Positions 7,973-61,510 of a DNA stretch of 64,000 nt are shown piece by piece (the first letter of the stretch is position 1; each line of letters begins with the position of its first letter). The notes beneath the pieces were generated by a model, which was not told the DNA's origin, did not search any database, and was given only the letters and a program-made list of their open reading frames with translations. Where the stretch lies: positions 45,949,501 through 46,013,500 of the forward strand of contig NC_080591.1 in NCBI RefSeq assembly GCF_029962835.1. Reading direction: 5' to 3'. Both the position numbers and the translations under genes were made by a program. The DNA comes from Magnolia sinica (taxonomy: Eukaryota > Streptophyta > Magnoliopsida > Magnoliales > Magnoliaceae).

Positions 7973-8149
7973 TGTTCACAACCCCAAGTGTAGGGTCGCG
8001 ATGTAGTAATAACTCGGCAAGACCGAGGTCAAATCCACAGGGACTAAACTTATACGTATTCTGAAAATAACTACAACTAGAACTAGAAAAAGATTTAAAT
8101 TAAAATCTGAATAATTGAGAGTAATGGTGAATAATGTTGGTTAAAATTT
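7973..8149 (-). repeat. Athila 3' LTR, segment 3 (outer end)
   Basis: It matches 38541-38705 closely, with TGTTCACAACCCCAAGTGTA at the terminus and the CTCGGC/ACCGAG hairpin near 8011. Homology stops about 8147-8149, where SIRE sequence begins. About 400 bp of LTR expected before 12333 is missing, so a deletion took both LTR and SIRE sequence. Confidence 0.85.
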
Positions 8150-12332: not shown

Positions 12333-12574
12333 ACTACAAGCTTCACCTCTTAGCCCTAGCTAAGAGGTTTAGCCAACCATAGACATGATTGGATCTAAAA
12401 CCCTAAAAGAAAACATTAAAAATAAATAAGGAAGGAAGAAAAACTATTGGGAGGTTGTTCTACCGTTTGGCTCTGCTTTTGAAAACCTAATTCATCCTTA
12501 GAACTCCTCAAAGAACCCATATTTATGGCTTTATTCGGCTGTCTTTGAATACCACCTCAAATTTACGCATTCTG
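12333..12574 (-). repeat. Athila 3' LTR, segment 2
   Basis: Between the truncated SIRE element and the 4.3-kb solo LTR, this segment continues the LTR, including the CCTCTTAGC/GCTAAGAGG hairpin at 12346-12367 and the TAGACATGATTG block. It ends with TTCTG (12570-12574), the target site of the solo LTR. Confidence 0.85.
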
Positions 12575-16899: not shown

Positions 16900-17544
16900 C
16901 TCTGCATAACGCCTTCAATGTCATTGAACAACCATCAATGTCATCGAACGTAACTTAAATTCAAAAGTCACGCCTTCTTTTCACACTGCATAATGCCTTT
17001 CGCACTGCGTAACTTTTCATGTCATCAATCAATCCTTCAATGTCTTGAAGGTGTTTAATCAATCAAGAATGTGTCCAGAGTGTTCTAACGAGTTGCTCCA
17101 GAAATCTTCAAAAATTTTGATATCATCGAATTGCCTTCGATGTCAACGAACAGGTCTTCGAGCAATCGCGATGTCATCGAGAAATGCATCTAGTTTGTCC
17201 AGCAACCAAACTTGATTTCATGTAATTCTTCGATGTCATCGAACACTAGCTTCGATGTTAGACATTGATGTTCAAATTCTGTAAATTTCTACACTTTTCC
17301 TTCCCTCTTACTTGGTTTCCTTGAATCTTAGGGTCTTGAAATCTCCAATCTTGGTCTCCTAAGATCCATCCCTTACTTTAGTGATTCTTGAACATTAAAT
17401 CCATGCTTTTAACATTCTATTCAATCCAAGCGCTTAGATTCACCTTGCAATACAAACATGTATAAAACATACCCATTAAGTGTTATCATGTTCATAAAAC
17501 CAAGATATAGACAGGGAAAACTATGCAATATTTGACACTCAACA
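16900..17544 (-). repeat. Athila 3' LTR, segment 1
   Basis: The outer start of the 3' LTR (17544, reading TGTTGAGTGTCAAATATTGC on the minus strand). It matches 39757 inward and stops at the 4.3-kb solo LTR, whose near-duplicate CTCTG is at 16900-16904. From 16915 to 17270 it carries TTCGATGTCATCGAA-type motifs absent from the 5' LTR. Confidence 0.85.
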
Positions 17545-38540: not shown

Positions 38541-39757
38541 TGTTCACAACACTAAGTGTAGGGACGCGATGTATTAATAACTCGGTAAGACCGAGGTTGA
38601 ATCCACGGGGACTAAACTTCTGAAAATAACTAGAACTAGAAAAACATCTAAATTGAAATCAGAATAATTGAGAGTAATGGTAAATAATGTTAATTAAAAC
38701 TTATGAATTTAAAAATAGGGAACTAGGGTGCCAAGGATCCACTTGTAGCTATCAAGATGCTACGTTACTTGATACAAGGAACATAATTGGAATTTGAGTC
38801 TTATCCTATCCAATTGGAAGATAAAACAATTAAATCAAATCTAAACTTTTCATTGACCTAATTCTCAATGGAAGAGAATTGTGATGATTGAAAGGGATTC
38901 ACCACCCTACTATGTCCAAGAGACGATGGTGAACAACGGGATTTACGAATTTCACTATCTCAAAACAAGAAAAGAAGATATCCAAAGCTATCAAAGCATC
39001 TATTGTAATTTAAGTCATAATAAATCACAGAAAACTGAAAATATTCCCTTAATATCAAACTAGAAATTAATGAAGTTCAATAAGAACAAGAATCAAAACA
39101 AAATAAACATCCCCATATGCTACAAGCTTCACCTCTTAGTCCCTAGCTAAGAGGTTTAAGCAACCATAGACATGATTGAAATCAAATTTCTTAAACAAAG
39201 CATGAAAAATAAACTAGAGAAGAAGAAAAACTCTTTGGCGGCTGCTCCACCCTTGTGTATGCTCATTAAGACCTTTTCAAACCCTAAAAAATGCTTTGAA
39301 TCATCCTAGGGAGTCCTATTTATAGTTGTGGAACTCCAACTTCGCACTTAGTTGGAAAATTTTAGAAATCGCCCCAAATTTATGCACTCTGCACAGTTTT
39401 CCAAAATAGGCTTGAAGTTCCAGAATATGCTTTTTCAGGATAATTTTAGGAATATATTTGTTTTCACGACAATTTCAGGATTCATTTTCTTCACTTTAAA
39501 TCTTTGATTTTCTTCATTCCTCACTTGGTTTTCTTGGATCTTTGGCATGTGAATTCTTTATTAATGACTTTTGAATCTTTAAATCTTCATTTAGTAATCT
39601 TTTGAGCATAAATCTTCCTTTTGGCATCAATTTTACCTTAAGCTCTTGAAATCACCTCGCATATGAAAACATGCATAATTAAATTGATTAAGCACTATCA
39701 TGTTTATAAAACCAAGGTATAAATAGGGAAGAAATGTGCAATATTTCACACTCAACA
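38541..39757 (-). repeat. 5' LTR of the Athila-type element (1217 bp)
   Basis: On the minus strand it runs from TGTTGAGTGTG to GTTGTGAACA. It contains the conserved CTCGGT/ACCGAG hairpin (near 38580) and the CCTCTTAG...CTAAGAGG hairpin (39132-39154) seen in the other Athila LTRs here. Its middle (39380-39510) lacks the TCGA-palindrome repeats present in the other copies. The PBS lies directly inside its end. Confidence 0.9.
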
Positions 39758-41787: not shown

Positions 41788-41796
41788 ATGAAAAAG

Positions 41797-43359
41797 GGAA
41801 TCGGATTGTGTACTGAGTAACTCAGTACCGTAAGGGCTACTGAGTTGAGGTGGCGGCGTTTCATTGGCCCTCATATGTGGGGCCGGCTTCACTCCTTCAA
41901 ACGGCAGAGCAAACGGCGTTAGCCCGTTTCTCTCTCCAGTTGTGTAGAGAGATTCTCTCCGCGTCTCTCCCGCCGTGCAGAAAAAAAAAAAGAAAACAAA
42001 AAAGAAGGAAAATCTCTCCAGCTGTGCAAGGAAAGAAGAAGAAGAAGAAGAAGAAGAAGCAGAGAGGGAGAGCTTCGTAGGTCTCTCCTGTCGATCTCTT
42101 CGTCTCCCTCTTGAGTTCAACCTCCCTCTCTTTCTCAGATCGACATCAACTCCTTTCTCTACATGGTGATGTTGATTTAGGATTAAGAATTTTTCTCCTT
42201 TCTCTTCTCTCTTTACTTGGTGATGTTGATTCAAGATTAGGGATTTTGCTCCCTTCGGTTGACAGTTTTATGAGAGATTAGAGATTAGGGTTTGAAATTG
42301 CAAATCCGCAGTAGGGAATTTTTCAAATCCCTAATCCATAACTTGAGATTTTTCAAATTTATAATTCCTAATTAACATTTTCATATTAGAAATTGAAAAT
42401 TCATGTTAGGGGATTTTTCAAATCCCTAATCCATAACTCGAGATTCTTCAAATTTCTAATTAGCATTTTTCAATCCCTAATCCATAGTAGGGGGATTCCC
42501 TATTTGTTTTTTTTTTTTTTTAATTTTTATAGAGATAACATTCCTAATCAAATGTGCATTTTTTTTTCAATCCCTAATTAGGATTTTGCATTTGTAAATT
42601 TAATTGGGGACTTTTTTTTAATCCAATTACGATTTTCAATTTTTAATCCATGGGCTGTATGCAAGCAAACTGTATAGTTATTCTTGGGTCAAACATTATA
42701 TCCTACCTCTTTTAGTTATGCTTTTACAGGGGATCTTGTGCTTTATTATTTGGAAATGACATAAATCACATGTGATCTGTATTAATCATGAAGAAATGAC
42801 ATAAATCAATGGAAATTATTTAGAAATTATAAAACAGATTTTTTTTAAAAAGCCATATTATTGTTAAGCATGTAACACAAAATCGCTGCTCAGTAGAAGA
42901 CAAATGCATAAAGAGCTTTCCTCCAGTTCTTGAGGTTTTTTTTTTTTTTCCTGATTCATAATTGCCTCTGAATTACTGAGTTTGGTCTCTTAACTTTATT
43001 ATAACAACAACAGAATTATTATTCAATTGAGACTTTCAACCTGGAATTCCTAAAAGAAAACGTTGCATGTCTTATCAGAATAGTATTGAGTAATCTCAGG
43101 GTTCACTTGGGTGTCTTGGACTAGCAGTTTTAAAGGGGAGTAGTTTCCATAAAAGATTGCATGGAATAGATAGCCTACTCATTTCTGCTCCTTAAGAAGA
43201 AATGAACCAGAACCTCATTTTAGGCTGGTATGAAACCAGAAAACCCACTCGATGTAGAATCCATTTTCTGTTATATCCGAGAAAGTCACCTTCTCAACTG
43301 CAGGTGGTGTGAAAAGGTTTCCACTGGAAATGTGGTTTAAGAATACTTCAAATTACAGC
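41797..43359 (+). repeat. MULE left terminal inverted repeat
   Basis: Pairs with 51122-52682 over its whole length. The outer 30 bases include ACTGAGTAACTCAGTAC, itself a palindrome. A GAA repeat near 42031-42058 is expanded relative to the right copy. Poly-T tracts (42510, 42930) are mirrored. In autonomous MULEs the TIR holds the transposase promoter; this is inferred, not seen. Confidence 0.92.
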
Positions 43360-43570
43360 AAATAGGCCATCTCTAGTGTCCCAAACATGCTGATTGCAGC
43401 TGGATCAATGTCTTTGCATCAATCAGTTCAGATGAGCTGGCCTTTTGCAGTTGCTTTTTTTTTTTTTTCTTTGTTGGCTTAAATGTCGCTATATATAGTT
43501 TTGAAGGATGTCAATAGTGTGCTCAGCAGTCTGTTTTCCTCTATTGAAAATCATGCAAGTGGTATGTGTG

Positions 43571-43679
43571 TAATGTTGATCTCCTAAACCGTTGTAATTT
43601 GCTTTTCTTAGGCAAGTAATTTTCCCGCTATCTTTGCCTTCTAATAAAGTAATTGTCATCTTTCCAAAAAAAATAAATA
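43571..43679 (+). mobile_element. 5'-truncated LINE-like insertion (109 bp)
   Basis: The segment ends in TTCTAATAAAGTAATTGTCA and an A-rich tail. It is bounded by near-identical 15-bp duplications CAAG(T/C)GGTATGTGTG (43556-43570, 43680-43694). This is target-primed reverse transcription debris inside the MULE. Confidence 0.7.
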
Positions 43680-44210
43680 CAAGCGGTATGTGTGACCCTT
43701 CATCCAATGGAATGCACCATGGAGATGTTGTTGCCCAAAATCTTTGAATATCAACTCAATCTTTAATGTTTGGTTGAGGATGGCTCATCTTTGTATAACT
43801 TACCTCATTGCTAACCTCCCTTGGGAAACCCAGCTTTTCCTTCTTTTCAAATTGAACAAACCTATGGATTCCACATTTACAGTCATAGAAATATGGCTAC
43901 GGTTTTTGTTTATCTAGTCGTATTGCCTATGTTTCTGTGCATAACTATAACCATTATTGTTATATCCCACGTGCATATTTTACATTATGAACTAAATTGT
44001 ATGCATGGTTTGTACGCCTTTTACTTTTGAAGGTCAATTATTGAAATGGATGATAAAATCTTGGAAAGTCAAGCATGTTCTTAAACATATCGAAGGTTAC
44101 AATTTGATATTGAAATAGATGTTCAAGATGCAAGCCAGTGCAATGAAGATGTAAAGCAAGATGTACTATTCAACATAGGTGATATATTAGATGAAGAACC
44201 AAAATTAGGA

Positions 44211-47094
44211 ATGGAGTTTTCTTCTGATGAAAGTGCATATAATTTTTATAATAGCTATGCTAAAAGGATAGGGTTCAGTGCTCGAAGGGGATGGATACAA
44301 AAATCAGATGAAGACATCATGGTTTTCAGAGAATTTTGTTGTTCTAAAGAAGGTCGAAAACATGAAAAGAAGCAAACCGATCTCGTAAGGTCTACCCGTC
44401 CGATTACAAGAACGAATTGTAAAGCAAGCATGATGATTAAGCTTCAGAAGAATGGAAAATATAGTGTAAATAAGTTTGTGGTAGAGCATAACCATGAGGT
44501 TGTTACACCAACGAAGGTGCACATGTTAAGGTCACACAGAAGCTTGACTGATGATCAAAAAGCTAACATAGATATCATAAATGATTCAGGAATAACACCA
44601 AGAGCAGGTGTCGAATATTTTAGTAGACAATCTGGAGGTTGAGAGAATATGGGTTTCACGCCAGTTGATTACAAGAACTACTTACAGAGAAAGCGAATGA
44701 AAGTGATGGAAAAGGGTGATGCAGGAGCTGTATTGGAGTACTTTCAACAAAAGCAAATTGATGATCCATCTTTCTTTTATGCTATACAAGTAGATAAAGA
44801 TAATCAAATGACGAACATGTTCTGGGCAGATGGAAGGTCATTAGTGGACTATAGTGTTTTTAGGGATGTCATTTGCTTTGATACTACATATAGGATAAAT
44901 AGTTATGGACGGCCTTTTGCCCCATTTATTGGGGTAAATCATCATAAGCAGACTGTAATATTTGGTGCGTCCTTACTATACGATGAAACGATTGAATCTT
45001 TCAAGTGGTTGTTTCAAACATTTTTAAGTGCGATGTTTGGAAAACAACCAATGACAATACTAACAGACCAAGATGCTGCAATGGCCAATGCATTAGCTTC
45101 AGTGATGCCAGAAACATATCATCGTCTATGTATGTGGCATATATACCAAAATGTTGCAAAACACCTTAGCAATGTATTTAATGGTTTAAAAAGTTTTGGT
45201 TCTGATTTTAGTAAGTGTGTATATGATTATGAGGAAGAGGAAGAGTTTCTAGCTGCATGGAATAACTTGCTTGAGAAATATGATTTAGTACAGAACAAGT
45301 GGCTACAGAATTTGTTTAAAGAAAGAGAGAAATGGGCTATGGTTTATGGAAGAAATACATTTTGTGCTGACATGAAGAGCACACAACGGAGTGAGAGCAT
45401 GAATGGCGTATTGAAAAAATATTTGAGCTCTAAATATAATCTTTTACGTTTCTTCACTCATTACGAACAAGTAGTGGCCGAACGACGATGCAAGGAATCT
45501 AAAGCTGATTTCAATATGAGGCAGAGTACCCCAATATTGTTTGCTGATGTCACAATGTTAAAGGAAGCAGCAAAATCATATACTCCAGAAATATTTGAAA
45601 TATTTCAAAATGAGTATAAGAAGTGGCTAAGTCATGCAATGTTTAAATGTGGTGAGTTTGGAACGGTTGTCGAGTTTCGAGTTGTTTTTAAAGGTAAAAT
45701 AGAAGGGCGTACCATTAGATTTGACTCATTAGATAGTACAGTGAGGTGTAGCTGTAAGAAATTTGAATTTGTGGGGATCTTATGTAGTCACGTATTAAAA
45801 GTTTTAAATTATTATAATATAGATGTGATTCATCCTCGTTATATTCTGAAGAGATAGCAAAGAGATGTAAAGGTAGGTTATGCTAAAGATTATACTGGGT
45901 TAACAATACAAGCTGACTGCAATGTTACTTCAAGTAAATGGTACAATCACTTGTGTCGCAAGCTTCTGAAAGTTGCAGCAATTGCTGGGGAACATGAAGA
46001 GGTCTTCAAAGTAGCTGATAAATATGCAGATATATATCATGATCAAGTGATGGAATGTACGAAAAGAATCAAAGAACTTCCATTAATGTCCGATATTGTT
46101 AAAGAAAGTGAAGATGATGCACCTACATGCCATTTGTTGACCAAAAGTTTAAATACCGAACATGCACACTCTGAACCCACAGAAAGTTTACATACTGAAG
46201 GTGCACCTTCCAATCTGACCTCAAGCGTACATACTGAAAGCACATTCCCTGAGCCAATTGAAATTGAAAACACTGAAAGCGTACGCTCTCGGCTAACCAA
46301 AAAACAAGTTACTTTTGTTGATAGTATGGGTACACAAATTGTAAGAGGGATTAAAGTAAAGCCCAAAGTTCGAAGCAACCATCGTGCGTTTAAAAATCCA
46401 CTAGATCGAATGAGGAAGAAAAGATCCTTATCTGAAACCGTTCAACCACAAGCAAGTCAAATGTTGATGGTGAAGGGAAACAATCATGCACCAAACGTCA
46501 TGCACCATGCTTCATTTCAACCTTCACATTATATGGTGTGGGTTACCTTCCTGACCCTAGTGGATCTATCAATGCATCAGTGGTTCAGTGTGGGTACCAA
46601 CTACATGATGCTAGCATGTTTCAACAAAACCTTTTCAACGTTGGATATCAGGTATAATTGAAGATTAATTTAGTAAACTTGTAATATTCTATATTGTCAT
46701 CTTAAAAAGAAAAAGAAAAAAAGAAAGAAGTTATAATATTACATATAACATTTATATCATTTCTACTTATTGGAGTTTTTATTATTGTGTTGTCGCTCTT
46801 TTAGAATTCAAATATTACCGGAGTGAGTTGTTCTGGATCCCAACCAAGTATTAACTTCTACCAGCAAAATCCCTCAAGCACCCCACATGATTCATCTACG
46901 GGAAGCGTCTTGCTTAGCCAGGTAAAAAGGATTATTTGTATTTGACATATTATTGAATATACCTTTTGAATTTATATATGGTAAAAAATCGTATTAACTA
47001 ATATGTGAATTTTCATATGCAGCCATCATTACCATCATATGATAACAATCAATTGTTGGGGTGTGAAGATTGCCACCCACGTTCGAGTAATTAG
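44211..47094 (+). pseudogene. MULE transposase (FAR1/FHY3 type), nearly complete but broken
   Basis: The enzyme would cut MULE TIRs and integrate the element in the nucleus. From the ATG at 44211 the frame has a FAR1 DNA-binding domain (residues ~1-95; Cys and HNH-type ligands, VVEHNHE). A TGA at 44640 follows where relatives have Arg. The MULE core comes next: CFDTTYRI, then LTDQDAAMANALASVMPETY and RLCMWHIYQN. A SWIM zinc finger (CSCKKFEFVGILCSH) follows, then a TAG at 45855 where relatives have Trp (ILKR*QRD). The frame resumes to about 46530, where one frameshift moves it to YGVGYLPDPSG. Likely exons follow: donor after 46651, exon 46805-46921, exon 47023-47094 ending TAG, all phase 0. 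The true start may be upstream. Confidence 0.9.
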
Positions 47095-47799
47095 TATTTC
47101 TTTTTTTCAAAGGTAAGCATGTGTTCTAAGTAGTGTTCTATGATGATAATGCAAATTTTGGTATAACCCAATTTGTCTTAAATGTATTTTTTTAATTATT
47201 ACTTATCTTGCACTTAATTTTTATCATTATTTTATCTTGGATGCAGGTGGAGATGCAACTGCTGTCAGGGGTGGGCTAACTCTTTTTGTCAAGCCCACCT
47301 AATTGATTCTTAAAAAATAGTGATTGTCTTATACAATAGGTGAGGCCCATTTCTTTTTGGGGCACTTGCCTAAATGATTGTACGGCTATACAAGAAAGGG
47401 AGTAGAAGAACCATCTAGCAGTTTTTTTCTACCAATTGTTTTAAAGGTCAGGATTTCCAAGCTCATCATTCAAATCAAACAACAGGGAGTGCAAAGTGAA
47501 GAAAGATTTTTTTTAATTAATTAATTTATTTTTATTTTTTTTGAATTTTGCAATGTCTTTGTGAAGAAAGATTTATTAAAAAGCATAAATAAGGGGTGTT
47601 GAAAGATTTATTGAATTTATTTATTTATTTATTTATATACCCCCGTTGTTACTTTTAGATTTTGGGTTTTATCATTGTTCTGTGGTAACCATTTTTTCAA
47701 TTGCCTAATTTAATATAAGCAATCTGCAGTAAGGAATGTATTTTTGATGTTGGAACCTTTTTGTATTCTTTCACATGACATTAATGTCACATATCAGTT

Positions 47800-47802
<3 letters not shown>
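47095..47802. other. Probable 3' flank of the transposase gene
   Basis: T-rich sequence without a frame. It may contain a 3' UTR exon starting near 47247 (after TTGGATGCAG). Nothing else was recognised. Confidence 0.4.

Positions 47803-47836
<34 letters not shown>
47803..47836. repeat. (TC)n microsatellite
   Basis: A 34-bp uninterrupted CT run inside the MULE. Confidence 0.95.
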
Positions 47837-47839
<3 letters not shown>

Positions 47840-48079
47840 GAAATTTCAATTGTGCACTTGTTCAAACCAAGGATTGGAAATTGGTTTCAGTTTACCTTAT
47901 CAGTCACCATGGAAATGGGGTTGTATTGCCGCTCATATTGCCCCGTTTCAGGCTATTTTGATCTGCGATACACCCATATCATTAGCCACAAAAACCTGTT
48001 TATACCAGGTGATACTAACCATCAAAGGTTAGAGGGACATTTTGAAAATATTAAAACTTATGGCATTCTGAAAATATCG

Positions 48080-49700
48080 CTGAGTTGAACACGTGTGGAA
48101 CATGTTCTGGTAGCAGCCTGCTCTGCGCTGACCCTAAAGTCATCGTCAATCGTCCTTTTCTTTTCCAATGGGATCAATGAGATTGTCGCTCAGCAGCTCC
48201 AAGATGAATTCGGGGCCTCTGAGTTTCAAGCTGAGTTCTCTCTTCCTAATTCCAGTATTTTCACAGAATTAGAAGAGGAGTGGGTTTATGTAACTGTGAG
48301 AGGGAAACCTTCAGCATTCCAGCTAAATATCGACTGCATTGAGAAAAGTGAATTGAGTTTGGACCATGGCATGAAAGATCCTGTTATGGGAGCTGCTAAT
48401 CTAGAACCAACTGAAAATCACGAGGGATTTATTTCAACTGATGCATTCAGTTCTCTGATTTCAACAATGAGATCGAACTTCATGGGTGTGGTTGCTGCTA
48501 AACCAGAAGCGATCTTGGGCGAGAATCTGATAAATTTTGATACAACGGCTTTGGTCGCCCTTGTGTCAGGAATAAGTAATGGTGGTGCAGAACTGTTGTT
48601 GGCAGCAACAGAAAGTGAGATGATAAAGCTTTTTAAGAACAATGTCAAGTTCGTGATGGCACAGGTAATCTATCCACTTTCAAGCTTTTCACTGCTTCTC
48701 CCATAGGGAATTTGAATGCAGGATTCCATTATTTCTAACCTTGTATAGCATGGTACCCTAGGTTTGGCTATTAGTCATTAAGCTTAGCAATTTAGGTTTA
48801 GGGTGCAGCGAGCATGGTGAGTTTGGGATGCATGCTTTTGTGGTTTCAGACTTTAGATGGTGAGATTGTTAAACTGCATGAGGTTGTTTTCTGAAGAACT
48901 TTGTAGATAGTTTTAAACTCAAAACCCATTATGCCTCTTTTTAGTTTTTGTTAGTTGGGGTTAATCCATGGTCACCAGATGTTTGTTGACACGAAGCAAT
49001 ATTTTCAATATTCTATTGGATAGAGACCCATGAAGTGGAAGTTGAGAAATAGTGGGCTGAGCTTTTTACCTTGTCACTTGCAGCACTGGACTGCAAAGTC
49101 ATGATGTCTTTTTTTTTTTTTTTTTTTTGAAAGATGAGATTTTATTAAAAAGAAAAGAAAAACAGCGAGCCCAACAGAAACCAAACCAAGCAGAAAAAAG
49201 GAAGAAACACCTAAAAAGACAAGCTAAACTACACACAACCATACCCACATCTGGCAAGAGAAAACCCAAACCAACGAAGTCATGATGTTGTGTTTATATT
49301 AATATTCGAAAACATAACTCTACTTGGAAAACTCTTTCAGTTTGGGTTCAACAGGCTGCAAGGATGAAAGTTTCGTTGATTGAATACAACAAGGGCTAAG
49401 TTGATCATTGGTTCAGTGTGGGTGTAAAATTAGTGGGATGAGTATATGCAAATCAATCAAGTCGGGTGTAGAAATAGTGGGTCTAAGGCTAATAGCATTT
49501 AATCGTTGCTTGTCACTTTACAATCACAGCATTTATGATTGGGTTTCTCTGTTTGAAGTCCAAAACTTTCCTTTTTTCAGGTGATGTCCGAGCTTCAGAA
49601 TCCAATTCTAGGGGAATTGAGAGGTGTGCTATCTTGTAAGAGAGGTGTCATCCGTGAAAGTGTTCTTTCGGAGTTGAAGGAGGTGTCATCTGTGAAAATT
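48080..49700 (+). pseudogene. Captured fragment of a DUF1308 (UPF0415/C7orf25-like) gene
   Basis: Exon 1 (about 48080-48664) reads VEHVLVAACSALTLKSSSIV, then LFFSNGINEIVAQQLQDEFG and LINFDTTALVALVSGISNGG. These are close to what I recall of plant DUF1308 proteins (N-P-S-S-I-I-L-F-F-type and NFDTTALVALVSGISNG blocks). A GT donor at 48665 and an AG at 49579-49580 bound an intron. Exon 2 (from 49581) continues in phase as VMSELQNPILGELRGVLSCK and diverges near 49690. The N- and C-terminal parts are missing. The intron is retained, so capture was at DNA level. The cellular role of the family is not well known to me. Confidence 0.82.
49108..49276 (-). mobile_element. LINE/SINE-like retroposon fragment (169 bp)
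   Basis: The plus strand starts with a 22-base run of mostly T (tail of a minus-strand retroposon) followed by GATGAGATTTTATTAAAAAG. 12-bp duplications AAGTCATGATGT flank it (49096-49107, 49277-49288). It lies in the intron of the captured DUF1308 fragment. Confidence 0.8.
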
Positions 49701-49883
49701 GGTAAAAGGGATTTAATCCGTAGCCATAGAAATATAGCTACGGTTATTATCCATCGAACGACCGTCGTTGTAGGTGCCGAGCCGATTTCTGTAGCCAAAA
49801 GTACCTATAGATATAGCTACAGTTATAAAATTATCAGCTACGGTCAATATCCGTAGCTATATCCTAGATTTTAAAAAAAACTA
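49701..49883. repeat. CGTAGC-rich block of unknown origin
   Basis: ATAGCTACGGTTAT and CGTAGCTATA words occur in both orientations between 49715 and 49862. A similar word (CATAGAAATATGGCTACGG) is at about 43885. Related words sit at both ends of the foldback interior (55785, 60575). It looks like termini of a small inverted-repeat element, but I cannot place its ends. Confidence 0.4.
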
Positions 49884-50105
49884 TAATCATTCATTCATTC
49901 AATTACCACCTGCATAATCATTCATTCAATTACCACCTGAATAATCATTCATTCGTTCATTCAATTACCACCTACATAATCATTCATTCATTTTCCACCT
50001 AAATAATCATTCATTCGTTCATTCAATTACCACCTGTATAATCATTCATTCATTCAATTACAACCATTCATTCAATAATGAATGCTTGTAATTGAATGAA
50101 TGAAT
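49884..50105. repeat. Tandem repeat of ATTCATTCA-AATTACCACCT units
   Basis: Six or so units of 25-37 bp (ATAATCATTCATTC + AATTACCACCTG) with variable numbers of the ATTC tetranucleotide. The end folds back on itself (CATTCATTCAATAATGAATG). Confidence 0.85.
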
Positions 50106-50383
50106 CACTAACTTAAGTTCAACTTGTGTTTTATCATTTAGAACTCATCCAAAATACATTAATTTTCAGAAGGAAAGCTACGGGTATTAAGGCATTTGGA
50201 AATGCCACCAAAGTTACCTTAGAAGCAAATCTGTTAATACCATGCCTAGTGACGCTGTATGTACTCCAACCTTGGATCACTTGCACTCCTCCTTCAAATG
50301 CTTAGAGTTGCCTTGGACCACACTTGGTCGAACTATAGCTACAAATTCAAAGAATATAAAGAATAAATAAAAAGGACAGTTAC

Positions 50384-50723
50384 CCAAGCTGGACCCTTGA
50401 TGAACTGTTTCATCATCTGTATGCGTGCTTTGCTAATTTCTCGCTTTAGCTCCTGCTAAAAAAAGTTGTACGTGTAAATTTAATTTCAATGAAGAAACTA
50501 CATTTCGTCTCCTACTCCTTCATGTTGACAGAAGTACTTTAGAGAAGCAACAAAGCAAACCTGAATTTGCTCTAAAACAAAGCGCAGGCCCTTGATTGTT
50601 GCAATGACAAAGGAGTTGTTTAATATTTCACCTACACAAGCTATCTCTGCCAGCTCACTCAACAAATTCTGGTGGGCCTTTCTCATTTCATGCCATTCAT
50701 CAAAAGCTCCAAGAACTGAAGAA
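50384..50723 (-). pseudogene. Captured fragment of a T-complex protein 11-like gene
   Basis: On the minus strand, 50723-50561 reads DEWHEMRKAHQNLLSELAEI then IATIKGLRFVLEQIQ, followed by a GT donor. After an intron, 50452-50384 reads ELKREISKARIQMMKQFIKG then PAW, followed by GT. This order (HQKLLKELAEI, MIKGLRFVLEQIQ, LKQEISKARI) is what I recall of plant TCP11-domain proteins. Only this middle part is present. It lies opposite in direction to the transposase and the DUF1308 piece, so it was acquired separately. Confidence 0.8.
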
Positions 50724-51121
50724 CAACAGTAGCCAGAACCGACCTCCTACCCATGAGCAGAAATCCCAATTTTCGGATGCGGCTGCAAATGCCTAGTCCA
50801 TTTATTCATCATCACCCAAACACTGCATTCTTACCATCAAAACCAAAAAAACCACAAAAACACAACAAACTCCAATCAGCTACTGGCAATAAAACTGCAA
50901 TTTGGATTTATGGAAACTATGGAGTTGAAATTTTATGAAATATCAAAAAAGCTTGTTGAATTCCAAAGAAGTCAGAATATTGTTGATTAGTGTCGCTTAT
51001 TTGTTAATATAATCATTAGATTGATTTTAGACAGTGGCATAAAACATTTTGACTTGTAACTCTTATGGATCAGTCTAGACCCTGTGGTTTGATTCTAGTA
51101 CAATTTTAGTTCGTAAACAAG

Positions 51122-52682
51122 GCTGCAATTTGAAGTATTCTTAAACCACATTTCCAGTGGAAACCTTTTCACACCACCTGCAGTTGAGAAGGTGACTTTC
51201 TCGGATATAACAGAAAATGGATTCTGCATCGAGTGGGTTTTCTGGTTTCATACCAGCCTGAAATGAGGTTCTGGTTCATTTCTTCTTCAGGAGCAGAAAT
51301 GAGCAGGCTATCTGTTCCATGCAATCTTTTGTGGAAACTACTCCCCTTTAAAACTGCTAGTCCAAGACACCCAAGTGAACCCTGAGATTACTCAATACTA
51401 TTCTGATAAGACATGCAACGTTTTCTTTTAGGAATTCCAAGTTGAAAGTCTCAATTGAATAATAATTCTGTTGTTGTTATAATAAAGTTGAGAGACCAAA
51501 CTCAGTAATTCAGAGGCAATTACGAATCAAGAAAAAAAAAAAAAACCTCAAGAACTGGAGGAAAGCTCTTTATGCATTTGTCTTCTACTGACCAGCGATT
51601 TTGTGCTACATGCTTAACAATAATATGGCTTTTTTTAAAAAAATCTATTTTATAATTTCTAAATAATTTCCATTGATTTATGTCATTTCTTCATGGTTAA
51701 TACAGATCACATGTGATTTATGTCATTTCCAAATAATAAAGCACAAGATCCCCTGTAAAAGCATAACTAAAAGAGGTGGGATACAATGTTTGACCCAAGA
51801 ATAACTATACAGTTTGCTTGCATACAACCCATGGATTAAAAATTGAAAATCGTAACTGGATTAAAAAAAAGTCCCCAATTAAATTTACAAATGCAAAATC
51901 CTAATTAGGGATTGAAAAAAAAATACGCACATTTGATTAGGAATGTTATCTCTATAAAAAAATTTAAAAAAAAAAAAAAAACAAATAGGGAATCCCCCTA
52001 CTATGGATTAGGGATTGAAAAATGCTAATTAGAAATTTGAAGAATCTCGAGTTATGGATTAGGGATTTGAAAAATCCCCTAACATGAATTTTCAATTTCT
52101 AATATGAAAATGTTAATTAGGAATTATAAATTTGAAAAATCTCAAGTTATGGATTAGGGATTTGAAAAATTCCTACTGCGGATTTGCAATTTCAAACCCT
52201 AATCTCTAATCTCTCATAAAACTGTCAACCGAAGGGAGCAAAATCCCTAATCTTGAATCAACATCACTAAGTAAAGAGAGAAGAGAAAGGAGAAAAATTC
52301 TTAATCCTAAATCAACATCACCATGTAGAGAAAGGAGTTAATGCCGATCTGAGAAAGAGAGGGAGGTTGAACTCGAGAGGGAGACGAAGAGATCGATAGG
52401 AGACCGACGAAGCTCTCCCTCTCTGCTTCTTCTTCTTTCCTTGCACGGCTGGAGAGATTTTCCTTCTTTTTTGTTTTCTTTTGTTTTCTTTTTTTTTTCT
52501 GCACGGCGGGAGAGACGCGGAGAGAATCTCTCTACACAACTGGAGAGAGAAATGGGCTAACGCCGTTTACTCTGCCGTTTGAAGGAGTGAAGTCGGCCCC
52601 ACATATGAGGGCCAATGAAACGCCGCCACCTCAACTCAGTAGCCCTTACGGTACTGAGTTACTCAGTACACAATCCGATTCC
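51122..52682 (-). repeat. MULE right terminal inverted repeat
   Basis: Mirror of 41797-43359, ending CAGTACACAATCCGATTCC next to the ATGAAAAAG duplication. Differences from the left copy are few and mostly in homopolymers and the CTT repeat. Confidence 0.92.
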
Positions 52683-52691
52683 ATGAAAAAG

Positions 52692-53009: not shown

Positions 53010-53536
53010 TTTTTTATGAAGAAATTTACGACTGTGGACTCCACCTTTTATCCAGTGGTTATTACAATACAAGCTTAACATACGCACTTAGACCTCCTCG
53101 TACGGACACCAAATTTGAGGATGAAAATACCCCTGCCTTCCTCTGGCGGGTGTGCAGAGACGAGCGCTGACGGACGGTCTGGCGATGGGAACTCAGGTGG
53201 GGCCCACTGTGATGTTTGTGAGAAATCCTCCCCATCTATGTTCATTCATAGGGTCACAAAGACCTAGATGAAGAGGAAAAAAAAATTTCATAATGATCCA
53301 AAACTTCCGTAATCCCTAAAAGGGTTTAAATGGTAGACGTTCAATTACCCACTGCCATTTACAGTGTGGTCCACTTGATAGGTAGATCTGTCTTATTTTT
53401 TATCTCAAGCCTTAATACGAGTTCTCCAAACACATACCTCATAATGGGACCCACAAAAATCGGTGGAGATTACAGTAGGGAAGAAAAAGAGAGAGAAAAA
53501 AAAAAAGAAAAAAAAAGGAGCCAGCGACCTGGTCAA

Positions 53537-55755
53537 TGTTCACTCCCCAAGTATAGGGTTGTGATGTAGTAATAAACTCGGTAAGACCGAGGTCGAATCC
53601 ACAGGGACTGATACTTGTACGTTTCCTGAAACTAAATAGAAATAGAACTAGTCTAGGATGCGATCTAAACCAAATAGGATTTAAGAAATAATTGTGGAAT
53701 AATTATCTAAAACTTAAGGAATTCAGAGAAGGGAAACTAGGGATTTAGAGGATCCACTTGTAGGGATCAGGGAGATCTTTTGCCTGCATCAGGAATCATG
53801 GAAATCAAACTGAACTTACTTGATCTGGTTTTCAAGAGATGAAAGGTATATGAATTAGAATGGATTCCATCATCTAACCATGCCCAGGAGACAAAGCAAA
53901 TAACAGGATTAAACTAATTTCCAACCAATCAAAAGTACATGAAAGTTAGGAAGGGTACGATCATCCAACCATGCCCAGGAGATGATGGTGAACAACAGGG
54001 CTTCTTGACGTCATAAACATCCAAAAACAAAGAAAAAGAGATATTCAAAGCCGTTGCAGACCCATTATAATTTCATTCCCAACAGACCATTAAAGACTAA
54101 AAAAAAATTCCATTAATACAAATCGACTTCAGTTCATGAATTTAAATGAAAAGCAGGAAATAGTATCTCCCATCTCGCCACAAGCTTCACCTCTTAGCCC
54201 TAGCTAAGAGGATTAGCCACACATGAATGGGCTGATCCTTAAAAAATAAAGGAAATATAAAGGAAAAGAAGAGAAAAAAAACCAGGCTCTTTCATCTTTT
54301 CTTCCTTTCTTTCCCGCTCCAATAGCCAAGCCGATTCTTCTTTTCTTCTCCTTTTCTTCTTCCCTCCACACGCTGCCAGCAGCCCAAGCCAAAGAAGATC
54401 CAGCCACGTCCAGTCCCCCCGTCCAGCAGAAAAGCCCCCCGGCTGCACTCTCTTCTCGGCTGCACTCTCCTCTTCCCGTTTCTTCCCTCCTTCCTTTCTT
54501 CCTTCAATCCTCCACACGTTCCAGCCGTGGATCCTTCTCTCTCTTTTTCTTTTTCCTCATATAGAGCCAGGAGGTCGGTGCGGAAGGCTGGAGTCCACGG
54601 ACGAGTTAGCTGCGGAAGCGTTCTTTACGCACAGCAGCCAATTCGGAGCCTACCACTCTTCTTCTTCTTCTTTGCTTTCCTTCCAAAAGGACAACGTCCT
54701 CTGGGAGTTTTCGGGCAGACCTTCATGATGAACGGTTCAGATCATCCGTCCGATCGCCCCCATGAGTGCACAACCTGCCGCAAAAGCCGGACAGCGTCCG
54801 GCGCAAAAACAGGGCCTGCGTATCGTCACGCTATGACGATGGTGGGGTCCACAATCAGCTTATCAAGGAAATCCACACCGTCCACTGGTTTCCCCTCGGA
54901 ATTTTAGTTGGGAATCGCTATTTTTGGGTCCAAATCGATGTGGTCCATGGGTGTTTTCATTCAGCCGTCCGTCGTCCGTTTTAACGCTCGAAAACCGATC
55001 GCTGGTGTCTTTTGACATTCATCCACCTAGGCCTGAGTGATAGGGGGCATGTGCGTCTTATAGACGGTCCGGATCTGACCGTTGATGCGTGGTGGGGCCC
55101 ACAAAAATTCGTCCGCAAGTCCGTGTGCGGACGCTGGAAGAAGAAATCGGTCAAAAGTCGGATTGACCGACTTTTCGTCTCTGTGCACGGCCAGTGCACT
55201 TATGCACTATGCACACGCATACTCCAGTGGGGTCCATTATGATGTTTTTGAGAAATCCGCTCTGTCTATCCGTTTTCTCAGCTCATTTAAACAGTTGAGA
55301 CCAAAAATGGAGAATATCCAGATATCAGGTGGGCCCCAGATCAGTAATTTGTGGGCTGATCTGTCCGTTGGGCCACTTTCACAGTGATCCAGGAGCTGAA
55401 ATTTTACGTGTACGGTTCATTTATGGTCTTCAGGCCACGTATGGAGTTTTGAACTGATCAGATGGTGGGAACCCTATGATCTTGTATTCTGGACACTTTT
55501 CAGGTCACTTGAGCTTCAATTGCTCGATTTTCTTGGATCCTTGGCGTGCAAATCTGTCGATCTTGGTCTCCTAGGGTCCGTCCCATGCTCTGGTGTTTTC
55601 AGACCGTTAAATCCATGCTTTTAGTACCCTTTCCCAGTCCAGGCTCGTGAATACGCCCTGCATCACAAACATGATTAAATCAGGCTGTTAAACCGTACTA
55701 TGTTCGTAAATCCAGGCAGTAACTGGGTCTGATATGCAATATTTGACCCTGAACA
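53537..55755 (-). mobile_element. Athila-type solo LTR (2219 bp) inside the left palindrome arm
   Basis: Perfect GTCAA duplications lie at 53532-53536 and 55756-55760. The ends TGTTCACTCCCCAAG (53537) and ATATTTGACCCTGAACA (55755), the CTCGGT/ACCGAG hairpin near 53577 and the CCTCTTAGC/GCTAAGAGG hairpin (54190-54211) match the other Athila LTRs. The middle (about 54240-55500) is C/T-rich and then contains GTGGGGTCCAC-type words absent from those copies. The insertion interrupts only one arm, so it post-dates the palindrome. Confidence 0.9.
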
Positions 55756-56149
55756 GTCAACTGGGTTAGAGCTCAGCCTATGGCTACTGATTATAACCAT
55801 AGCCATAAGTGTAATGCTATGCACTTTTTTCTCTTTTTTATTTTTATTTTTAATTTTTTTTTTACATGGAGAACTTTTTCCCCCTTACATTTTTCTCTAA
55901 CACATAATTATGTAAATATGTATATATAAGTATATAAAAATATTATTCTATCTTTTAATTCATTTCTTTATCTATTTATTTAACAAGCATATTTCCTAAA
56001 CTAGAACAATTTACTTAACTTACCATATATGATTTTGGGGTAGGAGAAGCTAATTTAGCCAAGCAACCTAGTTATTTTCCAAGATTCCATCGGGTCGATG
56101 GTCGAAAATCCATTTCATTCAGTTTGTGGTCAATTTCAATCACTTCGCA

Positions 56150-56263
56150 GTCAAACTGGAAATTCGGCGGGGCAAACATGAAATTGAGCGAGGCAAACAT
56201 GAAACTGAGCGGGGAAAACTAGAATTTCAACGGGGAAAACATAAAATTGAGCAGGGCAAACAT
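56150..56263 (+). repeat. 21-bp minisatellite block, left arm outer part
   Basis: Units such as GGGCAAACATGAAATTGAGC repeat with substitutions. Mirrored by 60140-60233 in the right arm. Confidence 0.85.
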
Positions 56264-56922
56264 GGTGAGTTGGTTCGAGTTGGTGCTCAACCCTAACTCG
56301 ACCCAAGGTTCCTATACCTAAACCTTGACCCAACCCAACCCAATCTTGGGTTGGGAATTCTCAACCCAAGCCCAACCCAAGAGGGCTCGATGGGTTGATT
56401 GGGTTGGTCGGGTGTATACGTGCTAATATTTTCATTATTACATTAGTTTATTATATTTCAATATACCACTTATTTTTTGTATCTATGATTTTATTAATCA
56501 TATATGTGATTATTCATCATAAAGAACTTCATTTTTTTCTTTAAAAAACCAAGCTAAAATATAGGACTACTCCTTTAAAAAGTCATGTAGCATAACACGC
56601 AATCTATTTGGGAGAGAGAAATCCAGCATATCTTGTTAGCTTGAGTCCTTGGAAATGACGTGGACAAATGAGACCCGACATCACTAGTGTACCTTCTACA
56701 CAAACAATCCACACTCAATTATAATTTATAAGTAACTAATATATTGATCGGGTTCGGGTTGGGTCGGGCAACCTGAGACCTCAACCCAAGCCCAACCTAA
56801 GTTTAATCGGGTTGGTGTTTGAATAGCCCAAGCTCGAGATCGGACCCGATATATCCTGCTCGAGCCCAACCCAATGTCGGGTCGGTCACGGGTTGGTCGG
56901 GTTGAACCCACCCAACTTTCAG
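56264..56922 (+). mobile_element. Non-autonomous DNA element rich in CAACCC/GGGTTG, left-arm copy
   Basis: About 660 bp splitting the 21-bp array. GGGTTGGG/CAACCCAACC clusters are at both ends and the interior is AT-rich. The right-arm counterpart is 59473-60131, whose ends CTGAAAGTTGGG and CGACTTTAG are inverted repeats of each other. It must have inserted before the arm was duplicated. The superfamily is uncertain. Confidence 0.65.
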
Positions 56923-56927
56923 TCGTA

Positions 56928-57540
56928 CATGAAATTGAGCGGGGCAAACTAGAAATTCAGAAGGGCAAACATGAAATTGAGAAGGGCAAACATGAAAATA
57001 AGCGGGGCAAACATGAAACTGAGCGGGGGAAAGTAGAAAATCAGTGGGGCAAACATGAAATTGAGTGGGTGAAACTAGAAAATCAGCGAAGGAAACTAGG
57101 AAATCAACAGGAAAACTAGAAAATCAGCGGGGCAAACTAGGAAATCAACGGGGGAAACATGAAAATCAGCAGGGCAAACATGAAATTGAGCGGGGCAAAC
57201 TAGGAAATCAGCAAGGTAAACTAAAAAATCAGCGGGGCAAACTAGGAAATCGGCGGGGCAAACTAGAAAATCAACAGGGCAACACATGAAATTGAGTGAG
57301 GGAACTAGAAAATCAGCCGGGCAAACCAGAAAATCAGTGGGGGAAACTAGAAAATCAGCGGAGGAAACATGAAAATCAGCGGGGCAAACATGAAATTGAG
57401 CGGGGGAAACTAGAAAATCAGCAGGGCAACTAGAAAATCAACGGGGCAAACTAGGAAATCAGCGGGGCAAACATGAAATTGAGGGGGCAAACATGAAATT
57501 CAGTGGGGCAAACTAGACAATCAGCGGGGCAAACTTAACA
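56928..57540 (+). repeat. 21-bp minisatellite, left arm inner block (~29 units)
   Basis: Units of the form GGCAAACTAGAAAATCAGCG, alternating with versions containing CATGAAATTGAGC. The length is a multiple of three, so a long stop-poor frame encodes a seven-residue repeat (GKLENQR-like). Mirrored at 58915-59470. Confidence 0.92.
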
Positions 57541-58070
57541 GATAACTTCATGGCTTGAGCCGATAAATCTAAATGTATCCAATGTTCAAATGGACCACAC
57601 CAAATGAAATTTTGAATTGAACTTCTAATGTTGATCATTTCTTAGGGGCTACAGAAGTTTTGGATCAAGATTATAATTGTTTTTTCTATTAATCCATGTT
57701 TATATAATCTTATGAATAGGTTTGATAATAAACAAACATCACTGTTGGGCCCACTATGGTTTCAACGGTGGAAATTATTATGCCCACTAAATCCCGTGGT
57801 ATGATTCACTTGATCTTTTGATCGCTTCAATTTGGGGCTAAACCGCTAAAATTAGATGGAAAAACGGATGGACAGCGTGGAAATACTACATACATTCAAT
57901 GTGGGCCCAACTGAGTTAACTTAGTATAATGGGAGCGTACTGACTAACTCAGTACGTAATCCAATTACGCTTGTTACGCTCCACAATGATGTTTTATTTG
58001 TAATACATCATGTTCAATACCCCTCTGTTTTCATCGGAATATGTATACACCAAAACCCCATATGTGGGAG
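57541..58070 (+). repeat. Inner unique part of the left palindrome arm
   Basis: Pairs with 58376-58914 in inverse order. It contains GTGGGCCCA words and, near 57935-57966, ACTAACTCAGTACGTAATCC, which resembles the outer TIR end of the MULE at 41797. Confidence 0.85.
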
Positions 58071-58375
58071 AGAACCTAGACATTGAGCAGGACAAAGATG
58101 AAATTGAACGGGCCAAACATGAAATTTAGTGGGGGAAGCATGAAATTCAGCGGGAAATATGAAATTCAGCGGGGAAAACAAGAAATTGATCGGGGCAAAC
58201 TTGATTTTCAGCGGGGGAAATATGAAATGTGGAGCCCCGCTTAGTTTGCCCCGCTGATTGTCTAGTTTGCCCCGTTGATTTTCTAGTTTTCCCCACTGAT
58301 TTTCATGTTTCCCCCGCTCAATTTCATGTTTGCCCCACTCAATTTCATCTTTGTCCCGCTCAATGTCTATGTTCC
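58071..58375. repeat. Palindrome centre, 21-bp units in both orientations
   Basis: Left half in the GGCAAACATGAAATT orientation, right half in its complement, meeting near 58223-58240. The symmetry is imperfect, so there is no real spacer between the arms. Confidence 0.85.
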
Positions 58376-58914
58376 CTCCCACATATGGGGTTTTGGTGTA
58401 TACATATTCTGATGAAAACGGAGGGGTATTGAACATGATGTATTACAAATAAAACATCATTGTGGAGCGTAGCAAGCGCAATCGGATTGCGTACTGAGTT
58501 AGTCAATATGCTCCCATTGTACTAAGTAAACTCAGTTGGGCCCACATTGAATGTATGTAGTATATTCATGCCGTCCATCCGTTTTTCCATCTAATTTTAG
58601 CGGTTTAGCCCCAAATTGAAGCGTATCAAAAGATCAAGTGGATCATACCATGTGATTTAGTGGGCATAATGATTTCCACTGTTGAAACCATAGTGGGCCC
58701 AACAGGGATGTTTGTTTGTTATCAAACCTATTCATAAGATTATACAGACATGGATTAATAGAAAAAACAAATTATAAGCTTGATTCAAAACTTCTTTAGC
58801 CCCTAAGAAATGATCAACATTAGAAGTTCAATTTAAAATTTCATTTGATGTGGTCCATTTAAACATTGGATACGTTTAGATTTATCGGCTCAAGCCATGG
58901 AATTATCTGTTAAG
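58376..58914 (-). repeat. Inner unique part of the right palindrome arm
   Basis: Inverse copy of 57541-58070, including GCAATCGGATTGCGTACTGA near 58480, the MULE-end-like motif. Confidence 0.85.
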
Positions 58915-59470
58915 TTTGCCCCGCTTGTTGTCTAGTTTGTCTCGTTGAATTTCATGTTTGCCCCGCTCAATTTCATGTTTGTCCTGCTGATTTTCTAGTT
59001 TGCCCCACTGATTTCCTAGTTTGCCCCGTTGATTTTCTAGTTTCCCCCGCTCAATTTCATGTTTGCCCCGCTGATTTTCATATTTCCCACTCTGATTTCC
59101 TAGTTTGCCCCGCTGATTTTCTAGTTTGCCCCACTGATTTTCTAGTTTTCCTCACTAATTTTCTAGTTTGCCTTGCTGATTTTCTAGTTTGCCCCACTGA
59201 TTTCCTAGGATTTTCTAGTTTCCCCTGCGCAAGTTCATGTTTACCCCGCTGATTTCATGTTTCCCCCACTAATTTTCTAGTTTGCCCCGTTGATTTCCTA
59301 GTTTGCCCCACTGATTTTCTAGTTTCACCTGCTCAATTTCATATTTGCCCTGCTGATTTTCTAGTTTCCCTGCTCAATTTCATGTTTGCCGTGCTGATTT
59401 TCATGTTTGCCCCGCTCAATTTCACGTTTGCCCCGCTGAATTTCTAGTTTGCCCGTTCAATTTCATGTAC
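58915..59470 (-). repeat. 21-bp minisatellite, right arm inner block
   Basis: Complement of the left block (CTAGTTTGCCCCGCTGATTT units). Unit order and number differ somewhat between the arms, so arrays have changed since the duplication. Confidence 0.9.
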
Positions 59471-59472
59471 GG

Positions 59473-60131
59473 CTGAAAGTTGGGCAGGTTCAACTCGACC
59501 GACCCGTGACCGACCCGACATTGGGTTGGGCTCGGGCAAGATATATCGGGTCTGATCTCAAGCTTGGACTATACAAACACTAACTCGATAAAACTTAGGT
59601 TGGGCTTGGGTTGAGATCTCAGGTTGCCTGACCCAACCCGAACCCGATCAATATATTAGTTACTTATAAATTATAATTGAGTGTGGATTGTTTGTGTAGA
59701 AGGTACACTAGTGATGTCAGGTCTCATTTGTCCACGTCATTTCCAAGGACTCAAACTAACAAGATATGCCGGATTTCTCTCTCCCAAATAGATTGCGTGC
59801 TATGCTATATGATTTTTTAAAGGAGTAGTCTTATATTTTAGCTTGGTTTTTTAAAGAAAAAAAATGAAGTTCTTTATGATGAATAATCACGTATATAATT
59901 AATAAAATCATAGATACAAAAAATAAGTGGTATATTGAAATATAATAAACTAATGTAACAACGAAAATATTGGCACGTATACACTCAACCAACCTAATCA
60001 ACCCGTCGAGCCTTCTTGGGTTGGGCTTGGGTTGAGAATTCCCAACCCAAGATTGGGTTGGGTTGGGTCAAGGTTCAGGTATAGGAACCTTGGGTTGGGT
60101 TAGGGTTGAGCACCAACCCACCCGACTTTAG
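59473..60131 (-). mobile_element. CAACCC/GGGTTG element, right-arm copy
   Basis: Inverse copy of 56264-56922 with clear inverted ends (CTGAAAGTTGGGCAGGTT; complement of CACCCGACTTTAG). Target duplications are not clear. Confidence 0.65.
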
Positions 60132-60139
60132 GCCCTAAT

Positions 60140-60233
60140 TTCATGTTTTCCCCGCTGAATTTTTAGTTTTCCCCACTCAATTTCATGTTTGCCTTGCTCA
60201 ATTTCATATTTGCCCTGCTGAATTTCCAGTTTG
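60140..60233 (-). repeat. 21-bp minisatellite block, right arm outer part
   Basis: Mirror of 56150-56263, units of the form CAATTTCATGTTTGCC. Confidence 0.85.
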
Positions 60234-61462
60234 GCTGCGAAGTGATTGAAATTAATCATAAACTGAATGAAATGGATTTTCGACCATCGACCCGATGGAA
60301 TCTTGGAAAATAACTAGGCTGGTTGGCTAAACTAGCTTCTCCTACCCCAAAATCATATGTGGTAAGTTAAGTAAATCATTCTAGTTTAGGAAATATGCTT
60401 GTTAAATAAATAGACAAAGAAATGAATTAAAAGATAGAATAATATTTTTATATACTTATATATACATATTTACATAATTATGTATTATAGAAAAATGTAA
60501 CGGGGAAAATGTTCTCCATGTAAAAAATAAAAATAAAAAAAAAAAAGAGAAAAAAGTGCATAGCATTACAGTTACGGCTACAGTTATAATCCGTAGCGAT
60601 AGGCCAAGCTCTAATCCGGTCGACCAGGTCTCGCTGGCTTCGTTTTTTTTTTTCCTTTGTTTTTTCCCTGTTGTAATCCCCACTGATTTTTGTGAGTCCC
60701 ATTATAAGGTATTTGTTATATCCAAGCCGTCCATCTATTTGGCGAACTCGAATTAAGGCTTGAGGTGAAAAATAAGACCGATCTAGTTATCAAGTGGACC
60801 ACACTGTAATAGGCAGTGGGGAATTGGACGTCTACCATTGAAACCCTTTTAGGGGTTACATAAGTTTTGGATTATTATGAAATTTTTTTTCCTCTTCATC
60901 CAGGTCTTTGTGACCCTATGAATGAACTTAGATGGGGAGGATTTCTCACAAACATCACAGTGGGCCCCAACTTAGACAGGGGAGGATTTCTAATGGTTGA
61001 CGCTCATTCAACACTGTTTCCTGTAATGTGGTACACTTAAGATCTGGATATACCTCATTTTTTGTCTTATACCATAAAATGATCCGGAAAAATATATGGA
61101 CGGCTTGGATGAAAATCATACAACACGGTGGGTTCCACAGACCACCGACGATCGGCCATGGCGGGGGTGGCAGGCGGAGTAGCCAGTCCGTTTCTGTGAA
61201 AAGGAGGGGTATTTTCGTCCTGGAATTTGTCGTCCGTACGAGGAGGTCTAAGTGCGTAGTTAAGTTTGTATTGCTTCAAGAATATCCGATGGATAAAAGG
61301 TGGGGTCCACAGTCGTAAATTTCTCTTTTTTACGCGCTGCGTTAAACAGGCGCTGTGGAGGAGAGTATTCGACTGCCCCTCTGCGGACCTACGCGGCCTA
61401 TCCTTCGCCGGAAAGCGCGCTCTCTCTCTCAGTAACAGATCCACAGAAGCCTACCTGCAAAA

Positions 61463-61510
61463 ATGGTCGAAACAGAGCATCCCGGCAGCCTTTCGCTTGG
61501 ATATATCCAG
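61463..61510 (+). CDS. Possible first coding exon of an unidentified gene
   Basis: An ATG in a good context (AAAAATGG) opens 16 codons, MVETEHPGSLSLGYIQ, ending at CAG|GTTAGG, a plausible splice donor at 61511. The 130 bases upstream are CpG- and CT-rich (GAAAGCGCGCTCTCTCTCTC), like a plant 5' UTR, and differ from the repeats around. No second exon can be identified downstream and I do not recognise the peptide. If real, the palindromic element lies about 140 bp upstream of the start codon. This is speculative. Confidence 0.22.

Follow-up and report, generated by a model that had tools for sequence, protein, structure and literature searches.

Composite ends rich in tandem repeats have been described in foldback transposons, several of them of Mutator type (PMC3169594, PMC4079207). 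Here, we describe a palindrome of about 6 kb in a 64,000-nucleotide stretch of Magnolia sinica (contig NC_080591.1, positions 45,949,501 to 46,013,500; hereafter the window, with coordinates counted from its first letter), which most probably belongs to a high-copy family of Mutator-like elements (MULEs), is non-autonomous and of foldback type, and was inserted as one unit.

Several known systems share individual features with this element. Tm1 of root-knot nematodes (Mutator/Foldback; PMC3169594), likened here by description, has composite terminal inverted repeats (TIRs), variable short tandem units, 9-bp duplications and non-autonomous members. It differs in its host, in a transposase-bearing member and in its 13-15-bp units, compared to 21 bp in Magnolia, where the arms are ~3 kb long, have no middle domain and both carry a nested hAT-like element. 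In Drosophila, the repeats of Galileo 2RT (PMC3573991) are likewise lengthened by tandem units and recruited internal sequence, its copies can be chimeric and the longest ones are non-autonomous, but Galileo belongs to the P superfamily and its terminal repeats reach up to ~1.26 kb in D. mojavensis. The non-autonomous Tetris foldback element of Drosophila virilis (PMC4079207) has flanking, tandem-repeat and inner domains in each long repeat (to 1,735 bp), yet it differs in its 220-bp units, a middle domain and an unknown transposase.

Among plant elements, maize Mu killer (PMC3440606) is a Mutator element whose two termini stem from one and the same end and enclose an inverted duplication; it carries partial transposase-gene copies at one locus, whereas the Magnolia element belongs to a family without recognised coding sequence. 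Plant MULEs with multiple long TIRs (PMC3310237) also have duplicated or rearranged terminal repeats, some of which were then amplified, but the extra repeats are mostly tandem (48, versus 13 with an added solo TIR) and not fused into palindromes. FARE of Arabidopsis, likewise compared by description, represents plant foldback elements tied to MULE transposase, as cited in PMC3169594. MULE terminal repeats measured 14-500 bp among the elements analysed in PMC6446971, so that both the 3-kb arms and the 1.56-kb repeats of a neighbouring element fall outside the range of that set. Literature searches on foldback, long-TIR, Mu killer and Magnolia/Liriodendron elements yielded no description of this family among the entries listed. 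The Magnolia element stands out by its arm length, by a second transposon mirrored in both arms and by having no middle domain.

Two 3-kb arms meet within a minisatellite

The element occupies 53019-61325 (8,307 bp), or 6,088 bp once a 2,219-bp insert in the left arm is set aside. An inverted-repeat search and an arm alignment with this insert (53537-55755) removed revealed homology from tip to axis, extending beyond the minisatellites, with identities of 88.7-94.4% outside the arrays and 76.1-87.3% within them. These analyses bear out the two inverted ~3-kb arms with identical part order proposed in an earlier, sequence-only reading of this DNA, and hundreds of aligned bases at 89-94% identity rule out a chance origin of the inverted repeat. 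From the left tip, the order is TIR core, a segment termed outL, outer block, an A+T-rich block (blk), minisatellite 1, hAT-like element, minisatellite 2, inner block and axis minisatellite, followed by the mirrored series (Table 1). While the palindrome itself was thus recovered, its description as near-perfect does not hold, as the arms have diverged, their arrays are unequal and private segments are present. The axis had been placed near 58223, close to where we found it: plus-oriented 21-bp units stop at ~58228 and minus-oriented units start at ~58234 (the latter read by eye), indicating that array orientation flips near 58229 and that the axis falls within the minisatellite. As in foldback-type elements, the very long inverted repeats contain tandem repeats (three arrays of 21-bp units per arm) and leave little or no middle.

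The outer block is a GTGGGGCCCAC block, and array unit types include CATGAAATTGAGCGGGGCAAA and CTAGAAAATCAGCGGGGCAAA. Contrary to its earlier designation as unique, the inner block opens with ~205 bp related in reverse orientation to the outer block (64% identity across 216 columns, E 1e-18), and each arm is therefore itself loosely palindromic. The right-arm segment outR (236 bp) sits in the place of outL (64 bp), and the two do not align.

Tips and flanks support a Mutator-type insertion

The motif AGAAATTTACGACTGTGG is present at both tips, and conserved GAGAAATTTACGACTG-type ends are carried on the long TIRs on both sides, the left one beginning with A. The flanks TTTTTTATG (53010-53018) and TTTTTTACG (61326-61334) agree at eight of nine bases, confirming the nine-base near-duplications noticed before; among 200,000 random 9-mer pairs from the window, the share with eight or more agreeing bases was 0.000275. 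The element hence shows both the conserved tips of a MULE and its 9-bp target-site duplication (TSD), the latter with one mismatch and therefore inexact. The family tip, the 8/9 TSD and the differing 15-bp flanks of 30 tips retrieved from the genome (see below) together support the proposed Mutator type and insertion as one unit.

The arm belongs to an abundant family

In order to place the element in its family, we searched the genome (1.84 Gb, 127 contigs) with the left tip and with blk, scoring 40 of 1,254 first-look candidates (the window's own tip included) and 40 of 2,802, respectively. The 30 best left-tip matches, one of which is the window itself, were fetched with 1.5 kb on each side and represent a non-random sample of the family. 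Their 15-bp flanks differ, and 28 of the 30 tips start with G. The order tip-outL-outer block-blk was found in 28 of the 29 other loci (exception L015), followed within the first 1.6 kb by a minisatellite in all but one (L030) of these 28, inverted in L023. Four of the 29 (L006, L007, L009, L016) have the hAT-like piece behind the first array, and the junction, inspected in three of these four, is identical to that in the window's right arm. The composite content that had been singled out as unusual is thus for the most part shared across the family, with a nested hAT-like insertion added, whereas the 3-kb arm length and the doubled nested insertion are indeed unusual.

A self-inverted match within 1.6 kb of the tip was detected in six of the 30 loci (L003, L011, L015, L018, L019, L030); in loci without such a match, any second arm would lie past the fetched stretch. 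In L003, the arrays invert around an axis 1,466 bp from the tip, a weaker axis of this kind (74.5%) is seen in L018, and in L017 and L019 a second, inverted blk follows beyond the array. In L015, the same tip is adjoined by outR-like stretches in both orientations instead of the usual arm. Two further places, put together by hand from match positions, look like foldback copies. At C19 (~22.928-22.934 Mb), blk in plus orientation at 22928388, blk in minus orientation at ~22933009-22933269 and a minus-oriented tip ending at 22933878 imply ~6.05 kb; the visible arm of this candidate (L012) has no hAT-like piece in its first 1.6 kb. At C5 (~22.297-22.301 Mb), blk copies in both orientations span ~3.5 kb outside to outside. 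Within the window, 20657-20889 is 80-82% identical to the palindrome's outer block and is perhaps another family member or a relative.

Nested insertions in the arms

hAT elements are recognised by 8-bp TSDs and hAT-type tips. The right-arm piece (670 bp) is bounded by CATGAAAT on either side and has the ends TAGGGCCTAAAG and TACGGCTGAAAG; by its 8-bp duplication and tips, this nested part classifies as a hAT-like insertion. CATGAAAT is itself sequence of the minisatellite unit, and the left-arm copy has an altered 5' tip. The ~660-bp element reported for both arms is accordingly present in each, and is now defined as a hAT-like insertion of 670 bp in the right arm.

LTR (long terminal repeat) retrotransposons carry TG...CA ends and produce 5-bp duplications. 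The insert at 53537-55755 has TG...CA ends and an exact GTCAA / GTCAA duplication, suggesting that it is LTR-like and probably a solo LTR. Stretches 76-98% identical to parts of it lie at 7973-10268, 12336-12375, 17339-17411 and 38541-39158, and its repeat family therefore seems to recur several times in the window.

Inner parts of the arms are more alike than outer parts

Between the arms, identity was 90.0% for the tip (110 sites; 87.4% over 111 sites when aligned with other loci), 88.7% for the outer block (326 sites; 91.9% in the alignment that included other loci), 93.3% for blk (55756-56150; 390 sites; 94.0% in that alignment), 94.4% for the hAT-like piece (643 sites) and 93.8% for the inner block (546 sites). 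The arrays reached 84.6% (array 1, 104 sites), 87.3% (array 2, 550 sites, the right arm having 55 gap bases) and 76.1% (axis array, 134 sites). With the arrays, outL/outR, the beginning of blk and 53481-53536 excluded, Kimura two-parameter (K2P) divergence was 0.061 for the inner arm blocks (89 of 1,545 sites differing) versus 0.103 for tip plus outer block (38 of 396; Fisher p 0.0085). This difference fits an interior copied from arm to arm at a time when the ends were already diverged or of mixed origin; it also fits more frequent conversion near the axis. At the 211 arm-arm transitions, the arm bearing C/G had it in CpG at 57 and in CHG at 35, contexts that, counted without a matched control, are compatible with decay under methylation.

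Identity of the left tip to the 29 other loci is 92.8-97.3%, above the 87.4% that it shares with its own right tip, a comparison biased by the choice of these loci for resembling the left tip; between the right tip and the tips of other loci, identity is 88.2-91.8%. For blk, the two arms are 94.0% alike, about the same as to their nearest other fetched loci (left 93.5%, right 93.3%), and a place outside the fetched set shares 95% identity with the left blk. In a tree of 31 arms, the window's two arms were not grouped with support.

Weighing alternative origins

Several observations weigh against insertion of a foldback MULE as one unit. Neither a second full-length copy nor an empty site was among the sequences read, which at other loci covered 1.5 kb on each side of the tips, so that movement of the whole 6-kb palindrome as such to other sites is not demonstrated. 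With a self-inverted match in just six of 30 loci, two of them (L015, L030) without an array axis, foldback structure is not shown for most family members. The TSD is T-rich besides its mismatch, and no transposase with these tips was found, a genome-wide search for one not having been made. Moreover, the inner/outer gap in divergence stems mainly from the tip (outer block alone 91.9%, blk 94.0%), and with the left tip nearer to other tips than to its own right tip, the ends could be of mixed origin. Alternatively, two family members may have been inserted head to head and the intervening sequence lost, in which case the palindrome would never have moved as a unit. The abundance of the family, the 236 bp of different sequence at the right tip and a left tip nearer to other fetched tips than to the right tip (87.4%), although those were picked for resembling it, speak for such an origin. 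It nevertheless appears rather unlikely in view of the 8/9 target duplication shared by the outer ends, the hAT-like insertion mirrored in both arms, the correspondence between the first units of the two axis arrays and the inverted structure also seen in L003, L017, L018 and L019.

Local inverted duplication of a chromosomal segment during the fold-back repair of a break here, without transposition, would account for inner arms that are more alike than outer ones, as expected from later copying of inner parts, and an axis in a repeat array would have offered microhomology. However, homology ends exactly at tips that are found at many places with different flanks, and a near-exact target duplication flanks the element; such repair could have formed the element at an earlier stage, yet it leaves the boundaries here unexplained, making a purely local origin very improbable. 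An assembly artefact, with the right arm a false inverted copy of the left, has nothing beyond the palindromic structure in its favour and almost certainly does not apply, because the arms differ by ~6-13% substitutions according to block and alignment, in array lengths, in private segments and in their flanks, and because the left-arm structure is present at other loci. Taken together, we favour a non-autonomous foldback MULE inserted as one unit.

Regarding its formation, we propose a route whose chances we judge to be evenly balanced. Ancestral members would have had shorter arms (~0.9-1 kb) around a minisatellite, and a hAT-like element would then have inserted into one array unit. Break repair or replication may subsequently have folded back or switched template inside the array, and copying the interior of one arm onto the other would have produced the full palindrome. 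A transposase made elsewhere would recognise the GAGAAATTTACGACTG tips, insert the element as one unit and leave a 9-bp duplication; insertion at the present site, divergence and the LTR-like insertion into the left arm would have come afterwards. As only one element is available, we infer this order of events.

Table 1 Features of the palindromic element and its flanks (window coordinates)
Feature	Position	Strand	Remarks
Left 9-bp target-site near-duplication TTTTTTATG	53010..53018	.	8/9 match to 61326-61334
Left tip, family TIR core GAGAAATTTACGACTG...	53019..53130	+	First base A here; genome search, 40 of 1,254 candidates scored, self included
Left-arm segment outL, 64 bp	53131..53194	+	Common to 28/29 other fetched loci; replaced in right arm
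Left outer subterminal block GTGGGGCCCACTGTGATGTTTGTG...	53195..53536	+	Arm alignment
LTR-like insert, 2,219 bp, probable solo LTR	53537..55755	.	Later insertion, TSD GTCAA; outside palindrome proper
Left A+T-rich block blk	55756..56150	+	Initial GTCAA is LTR target-site copy
Left minisatellite 1	56151..56265	+	21-bp unit
Left hAT-like nested copy	56266..56927	+	5' tip altered; CATGAAAT next at 56928-56935
Left minisatellite 2	56928..57535	+	~29 units of 21 bp
Left inner block	57536..58081	+	First ~205 bp, inverted 64% relative of outer block
Left axis minisatellite	58082..58228	+	
Right axis minisatellite	58229..58364	-	Orientation flip is axis
Right inner block	58365..58912	-	
Right minisatellite 2	58913..59467	-	Includes CATGAAAT target-site copy at 59460-59467
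Right hAT-like nested copy, 670 bp	59468..60137	-	CATGAAAT on both sides
Right minisatellite 1	60138..60234	-	Includes other CATGAAAT copy at 60138-60145
Right A+T-rich block blk	60235..60624	-	
Right outer subterminal block	60625..60972	-	
Right-arm segment outR, 236 bp	60973..61208	-	Absent from left arm
Right tip GAGAAATTTACGACTG...	61209..61325	-	
Right 9-bp target-site near-duplication TTTTTTACG	61326..61334	.	

Coding content, predicted hairpin RNA and neighbouring sequences

None of the 23 stop-to-stop open reading frames (ORFs) of at least 80 amino acids overlapping the element, insert included, contained a Pfam domain, and the element would therefore depend on a transposase in trans. 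A separate FAR1-type Mutator element (41788-52691) ends 318 bp left of the palindrome, with 1.56-kb inverted repeats (41797-43359 and 51122-52682, 95.9% identical) and exact 9-bp duplications ATGAAAAAG. Its frames 44085-44642 and 44643-45857, with a stop between them, contain FAR1 (E 1.9e-26), MULE (E 6e-31) and SWIM domains, and this FAR1 and MULE gene stands 6-9 kb left of the palindrome. Comparison of the tips (GGAATCGGATTGTG versus GAGAAATTTACG) led us to reject this element as a close relative, and with tips unlike the palindrome's, it does not offer an obvious transposase source. By eye, a short motif, ACTCAGTAC..AATCC.ATT, is common to the inner block (57947-57966) and the FAR1-type tip (52661-52680).

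An Rfam search of 40000-64000 gave three matches, all far under the gathering scores and none inside the palindrome. For the insert-free strand, folding was predicted at -4,520.6 kcal/mol (calculated without a shuffled control), and of the 2,991 bases in the left arm, 2,676 would pair across the axis; a long hairpin RNA from the palindrome is hence possible. Effects on the host, if any, would act via a DNA hairpin causing local instability or, if the element is transcribed, via double-stranded RNA. Inspection by eye also revealed an ATG in good context, 128 bp past the right TSD copy, that begins a run of 16 codons (61463-61510) with a GT splice-like site behind it. This frame is a possible first exon of a downstream gene; as such, it would place the element at the gene's 5' end.

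Compatible with a foldback MULE is a function as a Mu-killer-like silencing locus whose hairpin RNA would repress relatives in trans. The predicted near-complete RNA hairpin agrees with this idea, and a ~4-kb hairpin RNA has been proposed for maize Mu killer, which is derived from MuDR and palindromic (PMC3440606). Short antisense transcripts were found in silencing plants according to the same source, which prefers them to the hairpin. With no transposase domain in its ORFs, the Magnolia element could target only the family's arm sequences, and we regard such a function as improbable.

Implications for the family

A more far-reaching scenario, which we consider decidedly improbable, is that a high-copy plant MULE family evolved to full palindromes by repeated minisatellite fold-back, with each transposition spreading a ready-made 3-kb hairpin locus. 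If so, and if transcription entered them from promoters nearby, such loci would form natural Mu-killer-like sources of double-stranded RNA at dispersed sites, keeping the family in check and passing silencing on to genes whose 5' ends they occupy.

For the growth of foldback elements, the hAT-like insertion at mirrored sites of the two arms shows in what order events took place, and the inner blocks, being less diverged, agree with an interior that was copied later. The palindrome thereby offers a readable example of terminal repeats growing until fusion and, because its family is abundant, allows intermediate forms to be compared as a test of how such transposons arise.

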